IMG/VR virus record: IMGVR_UViG_3300046167_000825
Location: 1 to 64,000 of that record
Direction: 5' to 3' (one strand)
Source of the DNA: a virus
Length of the DNA: 64,000 bases
Positions within the stretch are counted from its first letter, which is position 1. Each line of letters opens with the position of its first letter. A program made the position numbers and the translations under genes. Positions 9,537 through 61,151 of this stretch are shown one piece after another. The notes under the pieces were generated by a model. That model was given only the letters and a program-made list of their open reading frames with translations, did no database searches and was not told where the DNA came from.

Positions 9537-9564
9537 TTGTAGTTTTAAGAGAGATCCGTATAGG
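9537..9564 (+). promoter_or_regulatory. Accessory-island promoter, copy 1
   Basis: TTGTAG (-35) and TATAGG (-10) are separated by 16 bases (TTTTAAGAGAGATCCG). The block from GTTGCGGTTG to the leader AATCAACATT is shared with copies at 10712 and, on the - strand, 12197. It drives the 9598 gene. Confidence 0.75.
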
Positions 9565-10015: not shown

Positions 10016-10218
10016 GTGTGAAACCAATTATCCAATCTGCAACTTTTTGAACATTTATGCAAAAAACCAAACAATTTCTGCAAGAAAAATACATAAATCC
10101 GTATTTTTCTGCAAGAAAATGAAAAAAACTGCAAAAATCCGTCAAAAGTTGCAGAAAAATCCATATTTCTGCAAAAAAACCTAAAAAGTTGCAGATCGGA
10201 TTTGGGATTGTTTCACAC
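10016..10218. repeat. Nested, A-rich palindromic region with reiterated CTGCAA units
   Basis: The outer arms (about 10016-10048 and 10183-10218) share GTGTGAAAC and ATCTGCAACTTTTT in inverted orientation. Inside are further inverted pairs: TGCAAGAAAAATAC with GTATTTTTCTGCA, TTGCAGAAA with a matching TTTCTGCAA, and CTGCAA with TTGCAG. CTGCAA or its complement recurs about eight times with A/T tracts between. It contains no open reading frame of note and lies upstream of the 10254 gene. Such architecture fits an origin, a structured RNA or a protein-binding array; which one cannot be told from sequence alone. Confidence 0.7.
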
Positions 10219-10253
10219 CAAAAGTTCTGTATATTTTTCATAAGGAGTTTAAT

Positions 10254-10706
10254 ATGAAAATAGTTAATCACTGTGACAGATGTTCTCGTGAACTCTGTAC
10301 ATGGCAAATGAGCCGTTTCAATACGCAAGACTGTTGCTTTCGCTGTATCGATCTTGAGAAGAAGCACCCTCGTTATCAAGAGGCGTATGAGGCTGAACTT
10401 GCAGAGGTGACTCGTGGGAATCACAACTACAAGGGCATAGGTCTTCCTCGTGACCTTGAAATCCAATCAAAGGTCACTCTCAGCCCCCAGTTCTACTTGG
10501 AGTCCAATGAGCAACTCTTGTTTCTCGGGAACTATTCGGGGGTTGATGCTTATTTTAATCCCGACAAAGGGGAACTTGTCCATAGAGTTCACTCTAGGAC
10601 TCGAACAATTTCTTTGTCTGTTGTTAAAGCCTTGCCGACAGACTCCAACCAATACATCTATTGGGAAGACACCCTACACCTCTTGAAATTATGTGATCTA
10701 GACTAG
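10254..10706 (+). CDS. Zinc-ribbon-like phage protein
   Basis: 150 residues from ATG 10254 with a TAAGGAG SD. The N-terminus has a four-cysteine layout: C-D-R-C at about 8-11, C-T-W-Q-M-S-R-F-N-T, then C-C-F-R-C. It is followed by EKKHPRYQEAYEAE and GNHNYKGIGLPRDL, an order typical of a small phage zinc-ribbon family that I have seen across myoviruses but cannot name. The remaining 100 residues are beta-rich. It lies between the palindromic region and a second copy of the island promoter. A nucleic-acid-binding or regulatory role is plausible, not shown. Confidence 0.8.
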   Translation: MKIVNHCDRCSRELCTWQMSRFNTQDCCFRCIDLEKKHPRYQEAYEAELAEVTRGNHNYKGIGLPRDLEIQSKVTLSPQFYLESNEQLLFLGNYSGVDAYFNPDKGELVHRVHSRTRTISLSVVKALPTDSNQYIYWEDTLHLLKLCDLD

Positions 10707-11812: not shown

Positions 11813-11932
11813 CTATGGGCATCCGTGTATGCCGAATAAATGTGTGATAGTGTGGAAAAAGAAGTGGATGACACCACCAATGACGGGCAGAGAAGCCAGC
11901 CATAGGTAGTATCGAGTGAGTAGTTCTTTCAT
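11813..11932 (-). CDS. 39-aa single-pass membrane protein
   Basis: Read on the - strand from ATG 11932 to TAG 11813-11815, four bases after the stop of the 67-aa gene. The product is MKELLTRYYLWLAS followed by LPVIGGVIHFFFHTI, a plausible transmembrane helix with several His residues, and ends FGIHGCP. The frame sits neatly between two SD-led genes in the same operon, which supports it being real, though its SD is weak (GGGG). Confidence 0.6.
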   Translation of the reverse strand: MKELLTRYYLWLASLPVIGGVIHFFFHTITHLFGIHGCP

Positions 11933-11935
11933 TGG

Positions 11936-12139
11936 TTACCCCCAGTAGTGATGGTCTGTGTCGCCACAAACATATTGATTTGCAAAGCGTTCTTCCAACT
12001 CAGCCAAGTACGCCTCATCACGAGCCTTGTCCTCAGCGAGTTGTTGTTGATATTGTTCGATGTCACGGTCGATTGCCTCTTGAGCATCGACATCGACATT
12101 GTGAATGGTTGGAATGGTTGGAATGGTTTGAACTGTCAT
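11936..12139 (-). CDS. 67-aa coiled-coil accessory protein
   Basis: Starts at ATG 12139 with a TAGGAG SD. The N-terminus is TIPTIPTIHNVDVDAQEAI, then a Glu/Gln-rich helical stretch (IEQYQQQLAEDKARDEAYL) and FANQYVCGDTDHHYWG at the end. First gene of a - operon whose promoter is the third copy of the island promoter. No family recognised. Confidence 0.7.
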   Translation of the reverse strand: MTVQTIPTIPTIHNVDVDAQEAIDRDIEQYQQQLAEDKARDEAYLAELEERFANQYVCGDTDHHYWG

Positions 12140-50801: not shown

Positions 50802-51024
50802 TACAGCCCCCTTTCTCGGCTTTCATCATTTTCTCACGGAGAGCCACGATCTTGGCTTCTTCTTCAATGATTTCTTTTTCAAAGAGAGTCTTCATGTCAG
50901 TGAACAAGGTGATCAACTGTTTGGCTTGAGGGATTTCTAGTTCCCCCTTCTCTTTCATCTGGTGTGGAACACCTTCAGTGACACCAAGTCGTTCTAGTAT
51001 CTCTTTCATTTCATCTTTTGTCAT
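50794..51024 (-). CDS. 76-aa coiled-coil linker protein
   Basis: Starts at ATG 51024, overlapping the stop of the giant gene as ATGA. It reads MTKDEMKEILERLGVTEG and later FEKEIIEEEAKIVALREKM, an acidic helical coil with a GCNG end. Overlaps the next gene by 8 bases, so the operon is translationally coupled. Possibly an assembly chaperone for the giant protein; no family recognised. Confidence 0.7.
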   Translation of the reverse strand: MTKDEMKEILERLGVTEGVPHQMKEKGELEIPQAKQLITLFTDMKTLFEKEIIEEEAKIVALREKMMKAEKGGCNG

Positions 51025-54000
51025 AGGTTCTCCACACTCTTTTTAATGTTGATTAATTCTTGTTCATCCTTCAAGTCCTTTTCGAGAATACCTCTCGCTC
51101 GATTTGCTGAAGGCAATGTCCCATTTGATTTGTTCGTTCGGAATGAAATCCATGTGTATCTCAAGTTTCTCAAGCGATCTGACGAATCAAGGATATCATC
51201 AAGTCTATCCACGAGATGTGGTCGACCAGAACCAGTCACCAACACTGTACCGTCACGCTCAAAAGAAGCGAAGGGGGTCGTGAGGGCTGGATCAAGAGGT
51301 GTTTCGTAGTCTAAGTTGTATTCCCCACACCAATATCTTCTGTCTTGGACAGAAAGACAATCAGAGGTGTTTAAGAAGGGGGACACATTACGAATACCAC
51401 CCAATGACTCCATGAGAGCATTAGACACCAAGCCGTATCCCCTACTTGTATCTGTGGGGTCATCTATCTCTAGGATGTGATCTTCCAATTGAAAAATGTG
51501 ATAACTCCCCGCTTTGTTTTTACGGGAGGGTTCAAGAATCTCTTCCATCCACGAGAGGGTTCTTTCTCTCTGAGTCAGAACTAGATCAATCATTTCCTCT
51601 GAGAATAAACCAGTCGGTCTGATAATCTTATAAGAAAACGGCTCAAGGGAAGAATATCCTTCCCACTCGTTAACGAGATCATAGGGGGCAGTAGGTCGGA
51701 GATCATTCTGTCCTTCATCCTCACCATCGGGTGACGGAGTGCTGGTCGGGAATGTGCCATTCATTGTTGGGTAAATGGCATACTCTTGCCCCACACTCCC
51801 AAAAGTAACGGGGTTGTCTGAACTCCCAGCGAACTCATTGAGAGGATTCACTTTCAATGATGTGCTGTTGTTTTCTTCGACACGATAGAAGCCACGATTG
51901 TCGTCTAGTTCGGAGGGTAAACCCTCGACAAAACCCGTTCTCCCAAAGACACCTCTATCGCCCATCGGTCGATAGCCTTCTGCATGTGGGTCTATTATGA
52001 TTAAATCCCCTTCTTGAACACCAACGAAGTCAGCACCCACGAGATTGTTCCGAACTACACATTGACCATCGTTCCCAGTCTTAATGACCTTTTTTGTCAT
52101 GATATCCAATAACTCATCCCATGATTGTTCATGGGGAATCATGCCTTGTCGGAGATAGATTTCAAAAGTGTAGTTCGTGGGATTGATTGCTAGGTCTTCC
52201 GTTAGGAACTCATCTCTAATTGAAACTTTATTGGGGAAACTTGAAGCCCCAGAGAGAATGTGTTCCTCTATCAACAACCCATCTTTCAAGATTCTTAAAG
52301 TATCCCCTCGATTCACACCAGAGAGACCCAGTACCCCAAAGAGATAGACATCACTCAGTTCTAAGGATCTATCAGACACATAAGAAACCACGCTACCTTT
52401 CCGTTTGAAATAGATAGGGGGGAGTAAATGCAAAGGCTCATTCAATTTATCTTGTATCTCGTGCCATCTTCTCACTCGTCTGACAGAGAACTTGACCTTT
52501 TCATAGAAGGCAAGAGTGTCAGACCCATTGGGATATGCAGTACTAACAGTGAAGTCACCTATGCTTCTCATCCCAACATTGGTGTCATCCATAGAAAGAC
52601 TGTTTGTCACCACTCGTGGCTCGGCTTCACCCAAGTCTTGAACTGGGATTGGTGTCGTGGGTTCAATGAAGATACCAGCGAGGTCTTTCTGCGTTATATC
52701 AAAGGTGTTTCCGTCTTTGATATAACCCTCACCATTGATAGGTAGCACCTCTGAGATATCTATATGAGAAGGCACACCCTCTGTGAACACTCGGTTCTCG
52801 CTGAAAGTACCATGTGTCGTGTTGATAGGGGCTTCAAAGACACCTATCTTGTTGGCAGCCGTTGCGTTCGCATTGAACTCCCCACCAGCAAATGTATAGG
52901 TTTGGCTACCAGTGTCATTAGTGATGATCAGTTCTTCAAGCCCCATTAAGGTTGTGGGATCGACCTCTTCGTACCCCCGAAGCATTTCCATAAAGTCGAA
53001 TCGTGTTGCACCAAAGGATTTAAGATTGGTTATCCCAGAAACATCTCCCATTGTGGTGGGGTTGCCATCTAGGGTTACAGTAGAAATTGTGAAGATACAC
53101 GAACCAAAACCGTTTATCACTTCAATTTCTGCGATGCTTGTATAAACGAACTCATAGACCTCAGTTTCTTTCTCCACGAAGATTGACCCCGTTGAGGGGA
53201 AGCAAGTTCGATTGCCATCTCCCGTGTCAAAGAAATCTCTCACACGGATATTTTTCAGTGTTATCGAGGTGAGGTCATGTGTCTCCACTTTGGCGAAGCC
53301 AGAATCTAAGGTGTTTTGTGTTCCGAAACGAATACCAGTCTTTGTTCTTTGTTCCCCATACGGATTGAGTGGGTCAGAGGGAGCAACCACATTCTTAATT
53401 ACATAAGACCCAGAGGTCACAGCCGTTTTGGTCAGAGATTGGATAACAAGAACATCGCCTTCCACTATGTTTTCTATAACCCCGTTGATGAGAGTCAGTG
53501 GGATGGCTGTGTAGGGGTTAACCATTGTTGTGTCTTGGTTTCCAATGTCTGAGGTGATAGCAAGGAAGCCGTCAGAAACATACCCCTCACCGTCACAGAT
53601 TATTGAAGTGGTGTTCTCATCTGAACTAGCCATAGCCGAGAAGCGAACTCCATTGATGTTCAAGGGAGTATTCTGAACACCCTCCCAAGACGGGACAGTA
53701 AAATCCTCTGTGAGGAAAGTGAACGGTGTCGCACCATTGATTGAGTTCGTTCCGTTTATGTAGGTCATGGGATAACCATCGCCAATATCAGAACCGTACT
53801 CATGTTCCACACGACCAACATACAAAGAGGTTTCAAGGACTAGACTATTGTCATTCGGATGGACGGTATCTCTGACAGTAGAGGCACAACCCCCCAAGCC
53901 CAAGTCATACTTCAAACGATCTGCACCGACAGTAGTCAGAAAAGAACCCGTGTAGGCTTCTTCATTCAGTGGTGTTCCGATACCACCCCAACTATCATCA

Positions 54001-57000
54001 AAGGCGTTCAGCCCCAATGTGAAGTCGAAGAAAACGGTATCATCTCCACCAATAGGTGTTCCAATGAGGGCAAAGTCAAACCAACCAATTCCTTGAACAC
54101 CGAGAACAACATTTGGAGTAGGATATGTCACGGGATCAACTGTATTCATATCCACGATGTCAATAATGATAGATGGACTTGAGTTCTGGGCTATTTTTTT
54201 ATCTACTGATACACCAACATTGAGTGTGTGGTGTAGTTCTAGTTCGGAGAGGATTGCACCAGTGGGGTGATCGATAAGAAGAAGACGGGCAGCATTTCTG
54301 TTTCCTTCTGGCACAGCAGTATCGACTGTCTGATTGAACCAAGAGATAAAACCCTCCCACGAGAATGTCGTTTGGGAAGATAAATCGAAAGTGGTGTAGT
54401 TATTGATGGCATCTTCAAGAATGACCATTCCGTTTTCTGCGTTTCCTAGTCCATCCACGACAGTGGACACATGAGCCATAGCGTTATCAACGATGTATTT
54501 ATCAAGAAGACCACTTTGTTCGGATACAAGACGAGGCACGCCTATGGTATTGCTCCCGACACTCCCAACAGAGAGAATCCCTTGCCAAGATTGTTCATTG
54601 GAATTAATTGGTTCAACCAATAATAGGTCGTATGATCTTACATCTGCAAGTCCAGTTCGGAGAGAGTAAGAGCCATTGACGGGTAGGAAGTTAACCGAGT
54701 CTGTTAAGAGGGCTTCACTTGTTAAGACTCCGTTTCTGCCGACAACTTCATTGGGATAGACGGCATTGTTATTTGAGAGGGCATCTTGGTCGAACAAGAA
54801 ATCAAAGGCTTTCGCCATCTGCCCTAGAACGGCTAGTTCGGTCTCACCCGATTTGAGATAAGGGAGTGTGTAATCCCCGCTGTCGTTTTTCTCTTGTCCA
54901 AGCAAACAAGGGAGTTTGGCTGGTTGCGTGTCCCCATTGTAGAAGAAGGTCACCCCTTCAAGACACTCATAAGGTTCTGGTGGGTTTTGGCTGAGTATCT
55001 TCTGCCAATCGAAACGGTCATCATCTTTTGAGGGGAAGGATTTATCAATCATTTGCCCCGATTTTCTATCGAGAGCGAAATCCCACCAAGTCGAATAGGC
55101 ATCGGACTTACCTTTCAGTTCGGCTTGTTCATCTAGGTCGGGGTCAGAAGGGGCGTTGGGCATGTAGTCATCTGTTCCGATGAATAAAGAATCTCCGAAT
55201 GAGATATCAATCTCCTCGAAAGTAGTTCGTATGAAGTCAGCCACATCCATGATGGCGTTCCCATCCTCATCTTGGAAAGTCAGAACACACCCAGCGATTA
55301 CTTCCTCGATATAAACATAAGTCGGATATATAACCCCATTTGGGTATCCCACAAAGACTTTATCCCCTTTATTGAAAGGAGGCGTGTGGAGGTCATAATC
55401 CCCCGAAGAAGCATCGTATATTTCCCCACCACCGATGACCATACGAGATGTGTCGGGGATTCCCTTTGAATCAGTGGGGAATTGATTGAGGGCGACAACC
55501 GAGATAACAACGGCGGGTCTTTCCCCAATAGTGATACTGAGGGCAGATTCGATTTCGGGGAAACCCGTGGGAGAATAATCATAAACTCTCCCTCTCGCTA
55601 AACGCTTCTGGATATCTAGATCAGAGATATTCTCTATTGTCCCTTGAACGGGATTACTGATCGCTCCGATTTGAGAACCTTTCGTGGAGTACCATTCCTC
55701 ATCAATCTCTCGTCCGTTGGTGAAGACACCGTAAGGATTATCCCCATCAATCAATGTCCCAGCATATGTCCTCGTGAACATATTAGTTCGCTCTGGGAAC
55801 AAACGACTGACAGTGTGATTATCCCCCATTGGTTTGTAAACACCCTTCGTCCAAAAACCTCTAGCCCAATCAAAGGACAGACCCTTTCGCCCAACCAGCA
55901 CGATGTCATCTATGTCATTCCTCGTGTAGGATTTCTGCTCGTTGAGAAAACTCCGTATCTCAGACATGTTGAGATCATCACCCTTCAAAACATAGTCGTC
56001 ACGACTAGCCCCACCATCGGGTTGTACAATAGCATCCTCAATCGTTAAAGGAATCCGAGTCAAACTCAGTTCCTCAAGAGTGTCATTAAAGAACTCCTCC
56101 CACACATTACGAGGGTTTAGGATACCCGTGAAAGGGTTCTCGTGTCCTTTAGGTGTGAGGTCATTGTCACGACCAACAAAGAACTTGAACTTGCCATCAC
56201 GGTCACCTATGAAACCACCCGTCACTGTTTCTCGTACTTGTTCAAACCCAACGATAATACGGTTGTAGACTTCTATAAACATCCGAGCCGCTTGATCTTG
56301 GTTGAGTGTGTCTTTATAAATGCCTCTACTTCCGAGTGACCCCTTCAAGAAGTTCTTGGGTGTGGTTGAGAAGCCCGTTCCAGAACCATTAGTTCCGTTG
56401 GGGTTCATATTCTGAGAGAAATCCTTTGCGACTTCTGCTAGATAGGCATCATTTTTGACAACACGAGTGAAGAAAGCATCGGGTTGACTGTAAAAGTAAT
56501 TACCCTCAATGAACCCTTTTGGGGTTCGGAGAGTGGAGTGGAGATAGGAGGCTCTGACATAGGGGACAACCACTTGTCCGTTTTGAAAGAAGGGGCTTAA
56601 AGCAGAAAGTGCTGTGCGAGACACCCACAAGACATCTCCTTTTTTTAATCCTCTCTGGAACTTATCCAAGAATCTTATATCCCCTTCTTCTGGGCTGCCT
56701 TCGTAATGGACATCCTCAATGAGTGTTTTACCAATGCCCCCCTCTTCAAATAGAACCAACTCAAAATAAGTGTCGGGAACAGAATCTCCCAGTTCAAACT
56801 CAAGGTCATTCTCAGCAAAGATGGGTCGGACAGACACTTTCGGTGGGTGCGTGTCGGGCTTGTACCCATTGGCTAACGGGCTTTGAAGTTTCACGAGAGT
56901 GAAATCCCCTTCGTCTGAGAGTTCCGTGTCCCCCACCAAGAAGACATCATCTCCGAGTTGGATGATACTATTCGTTTCAATGACTTCCGTCAGATTGCCC

Positions 57001-60000
57001 TCAAAGGTCAGTTCGGTCATTCCTCTGTCTGCTGGGAGATAAGAAACGAGGATATCCAACCAAAAGTCTAAGTCTTCAAACAGAGATTCACCACTCACCA
57101 ACATCTCGGAATCATTGGCTGGAGAAAGAGAACCTATTTCTTTTTGTGGTGCTGGAGAAATAACTATTTCAGTGCTTGTTGAGTTGTAGTTCGCTGCTTC
57201 GATTTTCAAGAGGAAGCCATCAATCCAAATCACACCACCCACCACAAAGTCCTCAGTTCGGTCGCCCTCAAGAAGAAAAGTGTCTTGTTCTTCTCGGAGT
57301 CGGAAAGGAGGTCGATAAATGGGATTATTTGAAGTGGTGTAGGATTGCTCCCCACCATCTGCTTCATACACTTGATAACTCGCTTTGAAAACATCACTGT
57401 ATAAAGGATTCCCAACAATGAAAGCCGTTCTGCCATCAAACATCAACTTATTGGTGACGGGGTCAATCTCAAAGGTGTACTCGTCAGTTTGTATTCTAGC
57501 CCCCACCCACAATGTAACCTCGCCATCTGCAATGAGAGTGTCATCTTCTAGATCAATCTCTGCCTTGAAGAAACCCGTCAGAGGGTCTATCTCAGTCACG
57601 GTTAGGTTTTTCTGTCTACGGAACACGGGGAGTTGATCGAAAACTTGAGGTAAGACAACCCCTTCCTCTGTCAGTTTCTCCCCGTCATCGTCTGCTCTAT
57701 AATATCTCGCTTCTACCACTGTTCCTTTCTTCAAGGGCTTCGTGAAGTTCAATGCCCCACCGATGGGATTCGCTTGAACATCTTGACCGAGAATCGCCCT
57801 CTGCACGAGATAGACTTTCCCAACTTGAGTTGCTGGAACAAATACCTCCCTAGAAGAATAATAGAACTCAGCGTGACCCAAGAGAGTGACATCACTGATG
57901 TCTGGCACAGCGTATGCCCTCCCACCGAGATTGTTCAGTGCCTCGTCAGAGAAGCGAACTTCCCCTTGAATGGGAGAACCCCAAGCACCGATTTCGATGT
58001 AATCCCCCGTGTTAGAAGAGAACACATTCACAAAGTGACAGTTTCCGTTACCTTTGGAGTATGAAACCTCACCCCCACCGAAGGAGATTTGAATGAACTC
58101 CCTCTCTAATAAAGGACTATCAATGACATACACACCATTTCTAGGATTTCCTAATAATTGTGACCCTATCTTGGTGGGAGTATAATCATTACTGTCGTCT
58201 GTTAAATCCCCCACACGGAAAAAGATATCACGACCATATTTCTCAGCATCACCAACATCTATAAAGAAAGCCCCACCACTCACAGAAGTTTCAACCAGTT
58301 CGACCAGTCGGATTATAAAACTCTCAGAGGGGAGATGGGATGTTGGATAAAGAATCTTATCAGCGTGAATAGATTTTGAATGACTACCAGAGAATATCTG
58401 ATAGTTCAAGTTCGATAAGTCCTCAGCGAACTGGGGATACACTTTGATTTTAGAGTTCAAGACCTCTTGAACAATGTAACTTCCTTCGAGGCTACCCCCA
58501 AGAATCTTCACTCTGTCTTTTGGGGACACCAGAGAAATCTGATTTGGATCTAGGGTTAGTTCATCCCCAACACTCACGCCATTGAAACCCTCAGCGATTT
58601 GCTCTCCTAGTGGTTCTATAATAGCCACTGTCCCCGTTTGCCCCTCGTCTAGTATGAGATAGTCCTCATCTTTCACTAGGGCGTTGAAAGTCGAACCATT
58701 TGAAACCCAGATGCCCTTATTGAAATAAGAATTGAAAGAACTCTCCACGACCATGTTAGGGGAAAGACTAATGAAGGGTGTTTCCGTTAGGACTTCGTTG
58801 ACTTGTGTGGACTCATCCACCCACATAAAGCGATTGTCATCGAACTGATAGATGATATCGTCATAATGGTGGAGGTCAGTTTGATTCAGACCCTCTCTAT
58901 AATTAAAGAAAACACCTTCACTGAAGCCTTTCATATCTTTCAGTGGTGTTTGGTCTAAATGGTGGAAGAAGTCTTGTCGGACATCCCCAATAAAACCCTC
59001 AGTCTTTTGTGTGGAATAAAAGTCCAGTTCATCTCCATCGGATTCTAAATCTTTATTGTAGGGGCTACGGAACAAACCGAAAGCCATCCCACTATCATTC
59101 AAGAAGCAAATATCCTCAGTGGTATCAACCACCCACCCAGCATTAAAACCAAGAACAGCACAACCCGATAGGTCACGGCTCTTATAAGGAAGGAGAACAC
59201 TGCCGTATTCTTTACTCCCAAAACCAATCTTGATACTCCCCGTTTTATCGGCTGTTTCCAAATATAACCGACCGTTGTAAGCCTTGAACAAACCCAAGCC
59301 CGTATCTAAAAGAGTCTCGCCTAGACTAGAAAATGAATAGGTATTCATTTTTAGGGCTGCCTCTTTTGCTGTAAGTGTTTCAGTGTAGTTCAGTTCGCAT
59401 ACGAACTTTGTGGTGTTAATCTCGAAAGAAAACACCATAGCACTGATTTCATACGGTTCTGATTTCCTAGACGGAATGGAAGCCTCATTGATTGTTCTTG
59501 CTGGAGTCACAAAGCCTTGTCGGAAGAAAACCCCATCGCCACTTTCTAACAGATTCTTTCTGTCCTTCGTATTGAAGCGAACCTCCCCATTCTCCAAACA
59601 GACCATCACAGTCCCCTTCTTAATTCTCCAAGCCCATCTCAAGTCCTTTTCTGAGGCGACAACTTCAAGTTGTTTGGTGGCGAAGGAACTAGAGAAAAAG
59701 ACCTCATCACCCACTGTCTTAATCCTACGAACTAACCCACTGCTAGATGGGAAGGGTTCGGCTGTGAGAGCATTGGGCAACAGACCCGTTCCATCTGGCA
59801 CTCTCAGAAAGCCCGATTGAAAAAGACCATTTGGTGTGGTGCTGGCATCCCCAAGAAAATAATCCTCTCCTTGAAGTGTGAGTTCGGTTGCCTTTGGGAA
59901 AAGAATGGGTTGAGTGTTGTGTGAAACACCATCATAGATGATGGCATCCTCGTAATACAAAACATCGAATAGATTGCTATCGGGATTTGCTTTTTGTAGT

Positions 60001-61151
60001 AAATCATCGTGGAACTTCACTCGACCAGTGCTTTCAGCCCAAGCGAAGGTTTTCTCATTGGGAAGAACTAGAGCATTGAGTTCGGTTTCATTCCGACACG
60101 CTATCGCTGTGAGATGTGTTCTGCTGCCCATCCGTAGCATCGGTCGATCAGTGTATTCTGGGATGGGGGCAAGGAACACGGGTGTGTCGAGAGTCTTCAG
60201 AAGCGAAGCCATCGCACCATCTGTTTCTTCTTGGAAATCATCGTAGGAATACCAAATGAACTTCCCAATATTAACTACCACAAAGTTTGGGTCAAAGACC
60301 AACTTGTTCCCATTCACACCAACAACGGCATCGGGAGTGTCTAGGTCAGATAAGAAATCATACTCTTCAATACCATCGTCATCAACCACCTTCACTTTCA
60401 ATACAGTTGCTGCCTCCGTTGGGAGAACACCCAACCTCAAGGTCGCTTTCACAGTGGGGTCGGAAGGGTCACCTTTAAGAAAAGACCCAATGTCTAAACC
60501 AATCTTCGGTGTGAGTTCGTAGGTTTCATCGGCAATCAATCGACCCAAGTTAATGATATTTGAGCCTTTATAAGGAAGCCAAGTCTGTTTTTCCCCATTC
60601 CATCCAAAACGAGTTTTGGTGTCATTCTTGACCCAATAGAACCCCATCTCTTTGAGGTAAGACTGATGTGAGAGAAACTGATAGTCATTCGTGAGTAATG
60701 TTTGTCCAGTGGTATTGATGTGGGCGTATGTGCCATCCCAAGTGAAATGAATGTCCTTTTGTAGTTCGGTGATAACTCCCCCCACCAAAAACTGAATGAC
60801 TTCCACCGATTCTATTTCTCTGCCTCTGCGGTTTATTACAAGAATCTTATTAAGAACAGCCCCCTCTTTGAATAACTGCGATTCAACACCTTGAACTAAA
60901 GCATTGGATTGAGATATCCGACCATTGTTCCCAGCCCACAGAAGATATTCCTCTGAGTTTTGACCCCCCTCAATGAAAGCACAACGATACTGACTCCCAA
61001 AGAGTTCTGTTAAGACAGTTTGATCGGAGTTCGACCATTCGTCAAAATGACGGACGACTCCACTGGTCGCAGTGGCTGTTGTTTCTGAGTTGCCAACACC
61101 ACTTCTTGAGGGTCGTAGGACAAAGCCCGATAAAATGTTCTGTATATTCAT
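51021..61151 (-). CDS. Giant 3376-aa tail or fibre protein
   Basis: One uninterrupted frame of 10.1 kb. It is almost wholly beta-rich and acidic, with many segments of the pattern strand, DG or PL turn, G.V then strand. Examples are FEIDPVTNKLMFDGRTAFIV, then IGGALNFTKPLKKGTVVEARYY, EGDRTEDFVVGGVIWIDGF and QSYTTSNNPIYRPPFRL. Later parts are Ser/Thr/Gly-rich and long-range repeats are hard to align by eye. The C-terminus has SLEPFSYKIIRPTG and helical ends (LKDEQELINIKKSVENL). SD TGAGGA precedes ATG 61151. It sits between spike genes and small tail-tip genes, so it is likely a receptor-binding or baseplate-peripheral protein. No enzyme motif seen. Confidence 0.75.
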   Translation of the reverse strand: MNIQNILSGFVLRPSRSGVGNSETTATATSGVVRHFDEWSNSDQTVLTELFGSQYRCAFIEGGQNSEEYLLWAGNNGRISQSNALVQGVESQLFKEGAVLNKILVINRRGREIESVEVIQFLVGGVITELQKDIHFTWDGTYAHINTTGQTLLTNDYQFLSHQSYLKEMGFYWVKNDTKTRFGWNGEKQTWLPYKGSNIINLGRLIADETYELTPKIGLDIGSFLKGDPSDPTVKATLRLGVLPTEAATVLKVKVVDDDGIEEYDFLSDLDTPDAVVGVNGNKLVFDPNFVVVNIGKFIWYSYDDFQEETDGAMASLLKTLDTPVFLAPIPEYTDRPMLRMGSRTHLTAIACRNETELNALVLPNEKTFAWAESTGRVKFHDDLLQKANPDSNLFDVLYYEDAIIYDGVSHNTQPILFPKATELTLQGEDYFLGDASTTPNGLFQSGFLRVPDGTGLLPNALTAEPFPSSSGLVRRIKTVGDEVFFSSSFATKQLEVVASEKDLRWAWRIKKGTVMVCLENGEVRFNTKDRKNLLESGDGVFFRQGFVTPARTINEASIPSRKSEPYEISAMVFSFEINTTKFVCELNYTETLTAKEAALKMNTYSFSSLGETLLDTGLGLFKAYNGRLYLETADKTGSIKIGFGSKEYGSVLLPYKSRDLSGCAVLGFNAGWVVDTTEDICFLNDSGMAFGLFRSPYNKDLESDGDELDFYSTQKTEGFIGDVRQDFFHHLDQTPLKDMKGFSEGVFFNYREGLNQTDLHHYDDIIYQFDDNRFMWVDESTQVNEVLTETPFISLSPNMVVESSFNSYFNKGIWVSNGSTFNALVKDEDYLILDEGQTGTVAIIEPLGEQIAEGFNGVSVGDELTLDPNQISLVSPKDRVKILGGSLEGSYIVQEVLNSKIKVYPQFAEDLSNLNYQIFSGSHSKSIHADKILYPTSHLPSESFIIRLVELVETSVSGGAFFIDVGDAEKYGRDIFFRVGDLTDDSNDYTPTKIGSQLLGNPRNGVYVIDSPLLEREFIQISFGGGEVSYSKGNGNCHFVNVFSSNTGDYIEIGAWGSPIQGEVRFSDEALNNLGGRAYAVPDISDVTLLGHAEFYYSSREVFVPATQVGKVYLVQRAILGQDVQANPIGGALNFTKPLKKGTVVEARYYRADDDGEKLTEEGVVLPQVFDQLPVFRRQKNLTVTEIDPLTGFFKAEIDLEDDTLIADGEVTLWVGARIQTDEYTFEIDPVTNKLMFDGRTAFIVGNPLYSDVFKASYQVYEADGGEQSYTTSNNPIYRPPFRLREEQDTFLLEGDRTEDFVVGGVIWIDGFLLKIEAANYNSTSTEIVISPAPQKEIGSLSPANDSEMLVSGESLFEDLDFWLDILVSYLPADRGMTELTFEGNLTEVIETNSIIQLGDDVFLVGDTELSDEGDFTLVKLQSPLANGYKPDTHPPKVSVRPIFAENDLEFELGDSVPDTYFELVLFEEGGIGKTLIEDVHYEGSPEEGDIRFLDKFQRGLKKGDVLWVSRTALSALSPFFQNGQVVVPYVRASYLHSTLRTPKGFIEGNYFYSQPDAFFTRVVKNDAYLAEVAKDFSQNMNPNGTNGSGTGFSTTPKNFLKGSLGSRGIYKDTLNQDQAARMFIEVYNRIIVGFEQVRETVTGGFIGDRDGKFKFFVGRDNDLTPKGHENPFTGILNPRNVWEEFFNDTLEELSLTRIPLTIEDAIVQPDGGASRDDYVLKGDDLNMSEIRSFLNEQKSYTRNDIDDIVLVGRKGLSFDWARGFWTKGVYKPMGDNHTVSRLFPERTNMFTRTYAGTLIDGDNPYGVFTNGREIDEEWYSTKGSQIGAISNPVQGTIENISDLDIQKRLARGRVYDYSPTGFPEIESALSITIGERPAVVISVVALNQFPTDSKGIPDTSRMVIGGGEIYDASSGDYDLHTPPFNKGDKVFVGYPNGVIYPTYVYIEEVIAGCVLTFQDEDGNAIMDVADFIRTTFEEIDISFGDSLFIGTDDYMPNAPSDPDLDEQAELKGKSDAYSTWWDFALDRKSGQMIDKSFPSKDDDRFDWQKILSQNPPEPYECLEGVTFFYNGDTQPAKLPCLLGQEKNDSGDYTLPYLKSGETELAVLGQMAKAFDFLFDQDALSNNNAVYPNEVVGRNGVLTSEALLTDSVNFLPVNGSYSLRTGLADVRSYDLLLVEPINSNEQSWQGILSVGSVGSNTIGVPRLVSEQSGLLDKYIVDNAMAHVSTVVDGLGNAENGMVILEDAINNYTTFDLSSQTTFSWEGFISWFNQTVDTAVPEGNRNAARLLLIDHPTGAILSELELHHTLNVGVSVDKKIAQNSSPSIIIDIVDMNTVDPVTYPTPNVVLGVQGIGWFDFALIGTPIGGDDTVFFDFTLGLNAFDDSWGGIGTPLNEEAYTGSFLTTVGADRLKYDLGLGGCASTVRDTVHPNDNSLVLETSLYVGRVEHEYGSDIGDGYPMTYINGTNSINGATPFTFLTEDFTVPSWEGVQNTPLNINGVRFSAMASSDENTTSIICDGEGYVSDGFLAITSDIGNQDTTMVNPYTAIPLTLINGVIENIVEGDVLVIQSLTKTAVTSGSYVIKNVVAPSDPLNPYGEQRTKTGIRFGTQNTLDSGFAKVETHDLTSITLKNIRVRDFFDTGDGNRTCFPSTGSIFVEKETEVYEFVYTSIAEIEVINGFGSCIFTISTVTLDGNPTTMGDVSGITNLKSFGATRFDFMEMLRGYEEVDPTTLMGLEELIITNDTGSQTYTFAGGEFNANATAANKIGVFEAPINTTHGTFSENRVFTEGVPSHIDISEVLPINGEGYIKDGNTFDITQKDLAGIFIEPTTPIPVQDLGEAEPRVVTNSLSMDDTNVGMRSIGDFTVSTAYPNGSDTLAFYEKVKFSVRRVRRWHEIQDKLNEPLHLLPPIYFKRKGSVVSYVSDRSLELSDVYLFGVLGLSGVNRGDTLRILKDGLLIEEHILSGASSFPNKVSIRDEFLTEDLAINPTNYTFEIYLRQGMIPHEQSWDELLDIMTKKVIKTGNDGQCVVRNNLVGADFVGVQEGDLIIIDPHAEGYRPMGDRGVFGRTGFVEGLPSELDDNRGFYRVEENNSTSLKVNPLNEFAGSSDNPVTFGSVGQEYAIYPTMNGTFPTSTPSPDGEDEGQNDLRPTAPYDLVNEWEGYSSLEPFSYKIIRPTGLFSEEMIDLVLTQRERTLSWMEEILEPSRKNKAGSYHIFQLEDHILEIDDPTDTSRGYGLVSNALMESLGGIRNVSPFLNTSDCLSVQDRRYWCGEYNLDYETPLDPALTTPFASFERDGTVLVTGSGRPHLVDRLDDILDSSDRLRNLRYTWISFRTNKSNGTLPSANRARGILEKDLKDEQELINIKKSVENL

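Follow-up and report, generated by a model that had tools for sequence, protein, structure and literature searches.

A helically phased array of TTGCAG-type units, present in three copies in a large tailed phage genome, as a probable protein-binding site with a possible role in replication

Results

Array A and its surroundings

The window analysed here is a stretch of 64,000 nucleotides, bases 1–64000 of a 289,014-base IMG/VR record from a large tailed phage. The phage encodes structural proteins (tail sheath, baseplate, major head and portal) together with DNA polymerase, primase, a DnaB-like helicase, a clamp loader, a UvsX-like recombinase, ribonucleotide reductase and many methyltransferases. 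The last and first frames of the record (the end of L115 and 1–2291 of the window) match adjacent parts of one protein in a relative (G006). They are in frame with each other across a single intervening codon and thus represent one gene, so that the nominally linear record amounts to a complete circular map. A minus-strand ORF of 3376 aa (51021–61151) is among the longest in the genome.

The segment 10016–10218 lies between two plus-strand genes (Table 1). The minus-strand ORFs that overlap it conflict with the downstream gene, which has a PHROG match, and the segment is therefore non-coding, as the first-pass annotation had it. That annotation also described a nested palindrome of about 200 nt, in which outer arms enclose further inverted pairs and about eight CTGCAA/TTGCAG units separated by A-tracts. 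The outer arms GTGTGAAAC/GTTTCACAC and ATCTGCAACTTTTT/AAAAAGTTGCAGAT are present, as are several further inverted pairs, and the units number seven exact copies plus one degenerate copy, with A/T tracts between them. Across the whole window the hexamer occurs 21 times against 28 expected, and seven of these occurrences fall within 160 bp, a clustering far beyond chance. The steps from unit to unit are 20, 21, 31, 20, 20, 20 and 20 bp. This spacing of 20 bp, or two helical turns, and the two further copies in the genome described below are additions to the earlier description.

The phage's own promoter class, G(G/A)T(T/C)G-N16-CCGTATA, has 40 exact examples in the record (e.g., at 9538, 10713, 151020, 159492 and 160339), and a GATTG-N16-CTGTATA variant overlaps the right end of array A. 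Several sigma-70-like proteins are encoded by the phage.

Table 1 Features of array A and its neighbourhood, and unit positions in arrays B and C
Feature	Position	Strand	Remarks
Upstream gene, 134 aa	9598–10002	+	No family match; own promoter at 9538 (GGTTG-N16-CCGTATA)
Left outer arm GTGTGAAAC	10016–10024	.	Array A only
Array A	10026–10204	.	Eight TTGCAG-type units in both orientations, with A/T tracts in between
Array A unit 1	10037–10042	−	TTGCAGA on the − strand, within end motif GAAACC..AATCTGCAACTTTTT
Array A unit 2	10057–10062	−	Degenerate, TTGCAT (ATGCAA at 10057)
Array A unit 3	10078–10083	−	
Array A central gap	10083–10110		Separates units 3 and 4 by three turns (31 bp); contains the perfect 10-bp inverted repeat AGAAAAATAC/GTATTTTTCT
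Array A unit 4	10109–10114	−	
Array A unit 5	10129–10134	−	
Array A unit 6	10149–10154	+	
Array A unit 7	10169–10174	−	
Array A unit 8	10189–10194	+	Within right-end motif common to arrays A, B and C
Predicted phage-class promoter GATTG-N16-CTGTATA	10206–10233	+	For gene 10254–10706; score 19.3, genome-wide rank 47
Right outer arm GTTTCACAC	10210–10218	.	Between −35 and −10 of the predicted promoter
Downstream gene, 150 aa	10254–10706	+	phrog_27033, function not known
Array B units (TGCA core positions)	151183, 151203, 151265, 151296, 151316		
Array C units (TGCA core positions)	159704, 159724, 159744, 159796, 159816, 159836, 159857		159704 degenerate

Two further arrays share the unit and its helical phase

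The first-pass annotation had suggested looking for other CTGCAA clusters, and searching the 289,014-base record with the element revealed related sequence at 151.2 kb (array B) and 159.8 kb (array C). When the full record was scanned blind for k-mer arrays, with five or more occurrences of a hexamer required and both orientations counted, arrays A, B and C came up along with two weak other loci. The unit consensus across the arrays is TTGCAGA with A/T tracts on both sides; exact AAAAGTTGCAGA sites number eight in the record, all of them inside the three arrays. The right ends of A, B and C all carry AAAAAGTTGCAGAT.GG.TTT, and the inverted ends of A and C, AAAC..AATC[TG]GCAACTTT, resemble each other; the left end is absent from B. 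Unit orientation is mixed in each array and the spacers between units allow no confident alignment, which leaves the spacing unexplained by simple tandem duplication. The genes flanking the three arrays are not paralogous to one another, indicating that the three do not derive from recent copying of a single segment, and a duplicated or mobile segment was accordingly rejected as their source.

Across all 20 sites of A, B and C, the best-fitting period is 10.2 bp (R = 0.968), a value attained by none of 5000 control sets in which the gaps were jittered by up to 5 bp (control maximum 0.76). The mid-array gaps differ (31 bp in A, 62 bp in B and 52 bp in C), yet the phase is kept across them, and this spacing fit places all units of an array on one face of the DNA. 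Runs of A or T within the arrays repeat with the same period as the units; A-tract periodicity gives arrays A, B and C the three highest places among 14,347 windows of the genome, and their AT content ranks 8, 11 and 53 of 14,335. Predicted curvature, from a dinucleotide wedge model and taken as supporting evidence only, is within the top 1.3% for A and C, while that of array B is not strong (rank 1799). After the arrays, the next most A-tract-periodic and curved stretch lies at 187640–187890 (G000:C1, L110) and contains no TTGCAG units.

Folding of the arrays largely follows from their units

One candidate put forward in the first-pass annotation was a structured phage RNA transcribed from 10016–10218. 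In its favor, the segment folds better than dinucleotide shuffles on both strands (z = −7.25 and −6.54), and weaker folds are found in array C (z = −3.75) and array B (z = −2.15). However, when the unit pieces of array A were randomised in order and orientation, 81 of 200 versions folded at least as well as the real sequence, and randomising orientation alone gave 109 of 200. The fold of array C is likewise no better than that of its unit-randomised versions; that of array B is somewhat better than its controls, of which 6/200 and 18/200 reach the real value. Conservation of the pairing, which had been named as a check, was judged among the three copies in this one genome, since genus-level relatives are absent from the collections: of the gap-free cells compared, 17 of 44 in B and 25 of 56 in C break a pair of array A (about 40–45%). 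An Rfam search with the element yielded no match at the gathering threshold, and the predicted promoter overlaps the right end of array A, so that a single transcript unit is not evident. A structured RNA is thus highly improbable here.

Since randomised units fold as well and the pairs are not kept in B and C, the nested palindrome arises mostly because near-palindromic sites are arrayed here in both orientations. What goes beyond this effect is only the pair of 9-bp outer arms, found in array A alone. The case shows that arrays of near-palindromic protein sites can mimic a large RNA palindrome.

Genome context and searches for an initiator

On the circular map, array A lies 141 kb from B, and C lies 139 kb from A, which places A almost opposite B and C; the chance probability of this antipodal layout is roughly 3%, and it is suggestive only. 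GC skew, proposed earlier as a check for an origin, shows no switch at A, B or C, and plus-strand genes in the two halves of the genome show no difference in third-position skew (p = 0.69). No match to the Rep_3 initiator, to ParB or to tubulin/TubZ was found in the 289-kb record, and none of the tested genes beside arrays A, B and C belongs to a recognisable initiator or partition family. An initiator of an unrecognised kind is possible.

The phage-class promoters nearest to arrays B and C are on the minus strand, near 151020 and 159492; each lies left of its array, by about 150 bp for B and 200 bp for C, and terminator-like hairpins lie between array B and its nearest promoter. A promoter subclass of the TGCGGTTGC type is enriched near the arrays (9.5–12.2 kb and 143–164 kb) and is also present elsewhere.

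The arrays in relatives and databases

The baseplate protein retrieves 70 IMG/VR loci, three of them fragments with 97–100% identity and the rest at 43% or less. The element was not seen in the three fragments, and its DNA has nothing comparable in the 50 records reached via the baseplate protein or in LR745208. The three flanking proteins, used as queries, likewise led to nothing comparable, and neither did scanning six relatives and 400 kb of LR745208 for k-mer arrays and A-tracts. The array was thus not found in the relatives examined at about 40% protein identity, which argues that, in its present form, it is not a conserved origin of the wider lineage. Two relatives carry repeats of their own: in one contig a 61-bp repeat occurs over 20 times next to the baseplate gene (L039, 6427–8300), and in another a 17-bp direct repeat is present six to seven times and may represent a different type of iteron (L131 in G012, 11824–11960).

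Exact-pattern scans of IMG/VR contigs gave no true relative among the matches listed, nor did a scan of GTDB contigs (84,980 genomes). The matches listed were coding repeats, unrelated plasmid-like iterons or chance occurrences, among them one in a Gammaproteobacteria contig that sits in a cellular gene. Three unrelated IMG/VR contigs carry TTGCAG/CTGCAA arrays with 21–22-bp spacing (L232, 290–440; L191, 945–1110; L251, 5475–5600), and these look like plasmid-type iteron origins.

Discussion

Taken together, the data indicate that the arrays very probably belong to the class of protein-binding DNA arrays, with their sites aligned on one helical face. Of the candidates in the first-pass annotation, an iteron origin and an operator array both fall within this class, which the evidence supports; the structured RNA is not supported. 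That the array mechanism serves replication or a closely linked process has slightly less than an even chance, and replication initiation itself is our first guess, though less likely than not. Transcription control and segregation or packaging are its close rivals.

Starting from the directly observed units, phasing, three copies, non-coding position, A/T-tract periodicity and AT-richness, we propose a plausible mechanism. Each site would consist of iteron-like, near-palindromic units (A/T tract, G/T, TTGCAG, A/T tract) set at whole helical turns, which would turn all units toward one side of the helix. The units may be bound cooperatively by a protein that acts as a dimer or oligomer and is most likely a phage product; either orientation of the unit would serve, since the TGCA core is self-complementary. 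The phased A/T tracts would favor bending or wrapping of the DNA into one nucleoprotein complex, which could then open the AT-rich DNA and load the phage helicase and primase, much as at iteron plasmid origins and lambda ori. With its own polymerase, DnaB-type helicase, primase and clamp loader, the phage has the machinery that an origin would feed. Against this reading stand the negative searches for a Rep_3 protein and for a recognised initiator beside any array, the skew profiles given above, the mixed orientation of the units, which is unusual for iterons, as these are typically direct repeats, and the predicted curvature of array B, which is not strong. A more specific version, in which a new kind of mixed-orientation phased initiator array makes A the origin, and B and C, flanking the opposite point, act through the same protein, either as secondary origins or in fork arrest or pairing, appears rather improbable.

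The same phased units could instead be bound upstream of promoters by a phage regulator that activates or silences them, in the manner of an upstream activating region or a silencer. Array A abuts and overlaps a phage-class promoter, arrays B and C also lie upstream of a minus-strand promoter, and TGCGGTTGC-type promoters cluster near the arrays, though they are not confined there. However, the distances between array and promoter vary widely (about 15, 150 and 200 bp), the hairpins separate B from its promoter, and nearly all of the roughly 40 places with this promoter class have no array; we regard transcriptional control as possible but somewhat unlikely. A centromere-like or pac-like site, serving segregation, genome anchoring or packaging through a ParR/TubR-type or small-terminase-type protein, is less likely again. 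Phased repeats on one DNA face are typical of such sites too, and the near-antipodal placement of A and B/C would suit them, although that layout carries little weight at its chance probability, ParB and tubulin/TubZ were not detected in the record, and one packaging start needs fewer than three sites. Finally, the three copies and the similar inverted ends of A and C might be read as the remnant of a MITE-like mobile inverted-repeat element, but the interiors cannot be aligned outside the units while helical phasing is kept, B has no left end and the flanks are not duplicated, making this origin of the arrays extremely doubtful.

To our knowledge, the start sites of replication, segregation or packaging are not known for most jumbo phages, and our searches of the open-access literature brought up no jumbo phage for which an iteron-like origin is described. 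Three compact, sharply bounded candidate sites and a defined 7-bp unit give a direct handle on the protein and the process involved.

Among known systems, type II plasmid centromeres (parC, bound by ParR) are phased repeat arrays that nucleate a protein superhelix. The arrays resemble them in their phased repeats, and differ in their mixed orientation and in having no adjacent ParR/ParM operon that we recognised. Lambda ori, with its O-protein iterons, is likewise a phage site in which bent A-tract iterons lie by AT-rich DNA, the iterons being intrinsically bent (PMC7466680); however, it holds four iterons inside the initiator gene O, whereas the present arrays are intergenic, with no O-like gene recognised beside them. 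The GACTTGCAGTTTTTACG repeat array of the unrelated IMG/VR contig 3300046642_000823 (L232) shares non-coding TTGCAG units in both orientations, at spacings of 21, 21, 41 and 53 bp, but is built of near-identical direct 21-bp repeats with inverted copies. Iteron plasmid origins (RK2, F, P1 and R6K, with their Rep initiators) are like the arrays in having several short units about two helical turns apart in AT-rich surroundings. Their iterons, of 17–22 bp, are bound cooperatively in a manner that depends on helical phase, such that a half-turn shift abolishes cooperativity (PMC4980987), and the units here are phased as well. Unlike these origins, the phage has three arrays, all of mixed orientation, and no Rep_3 or other cognate initiator emerged from the record-wide Rep_3 search or among the genes tested. 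As the units are not direct repeats and no cognate initiator was recognised, the arrays are not assignable to the iteron family, but they may well work like iterons.
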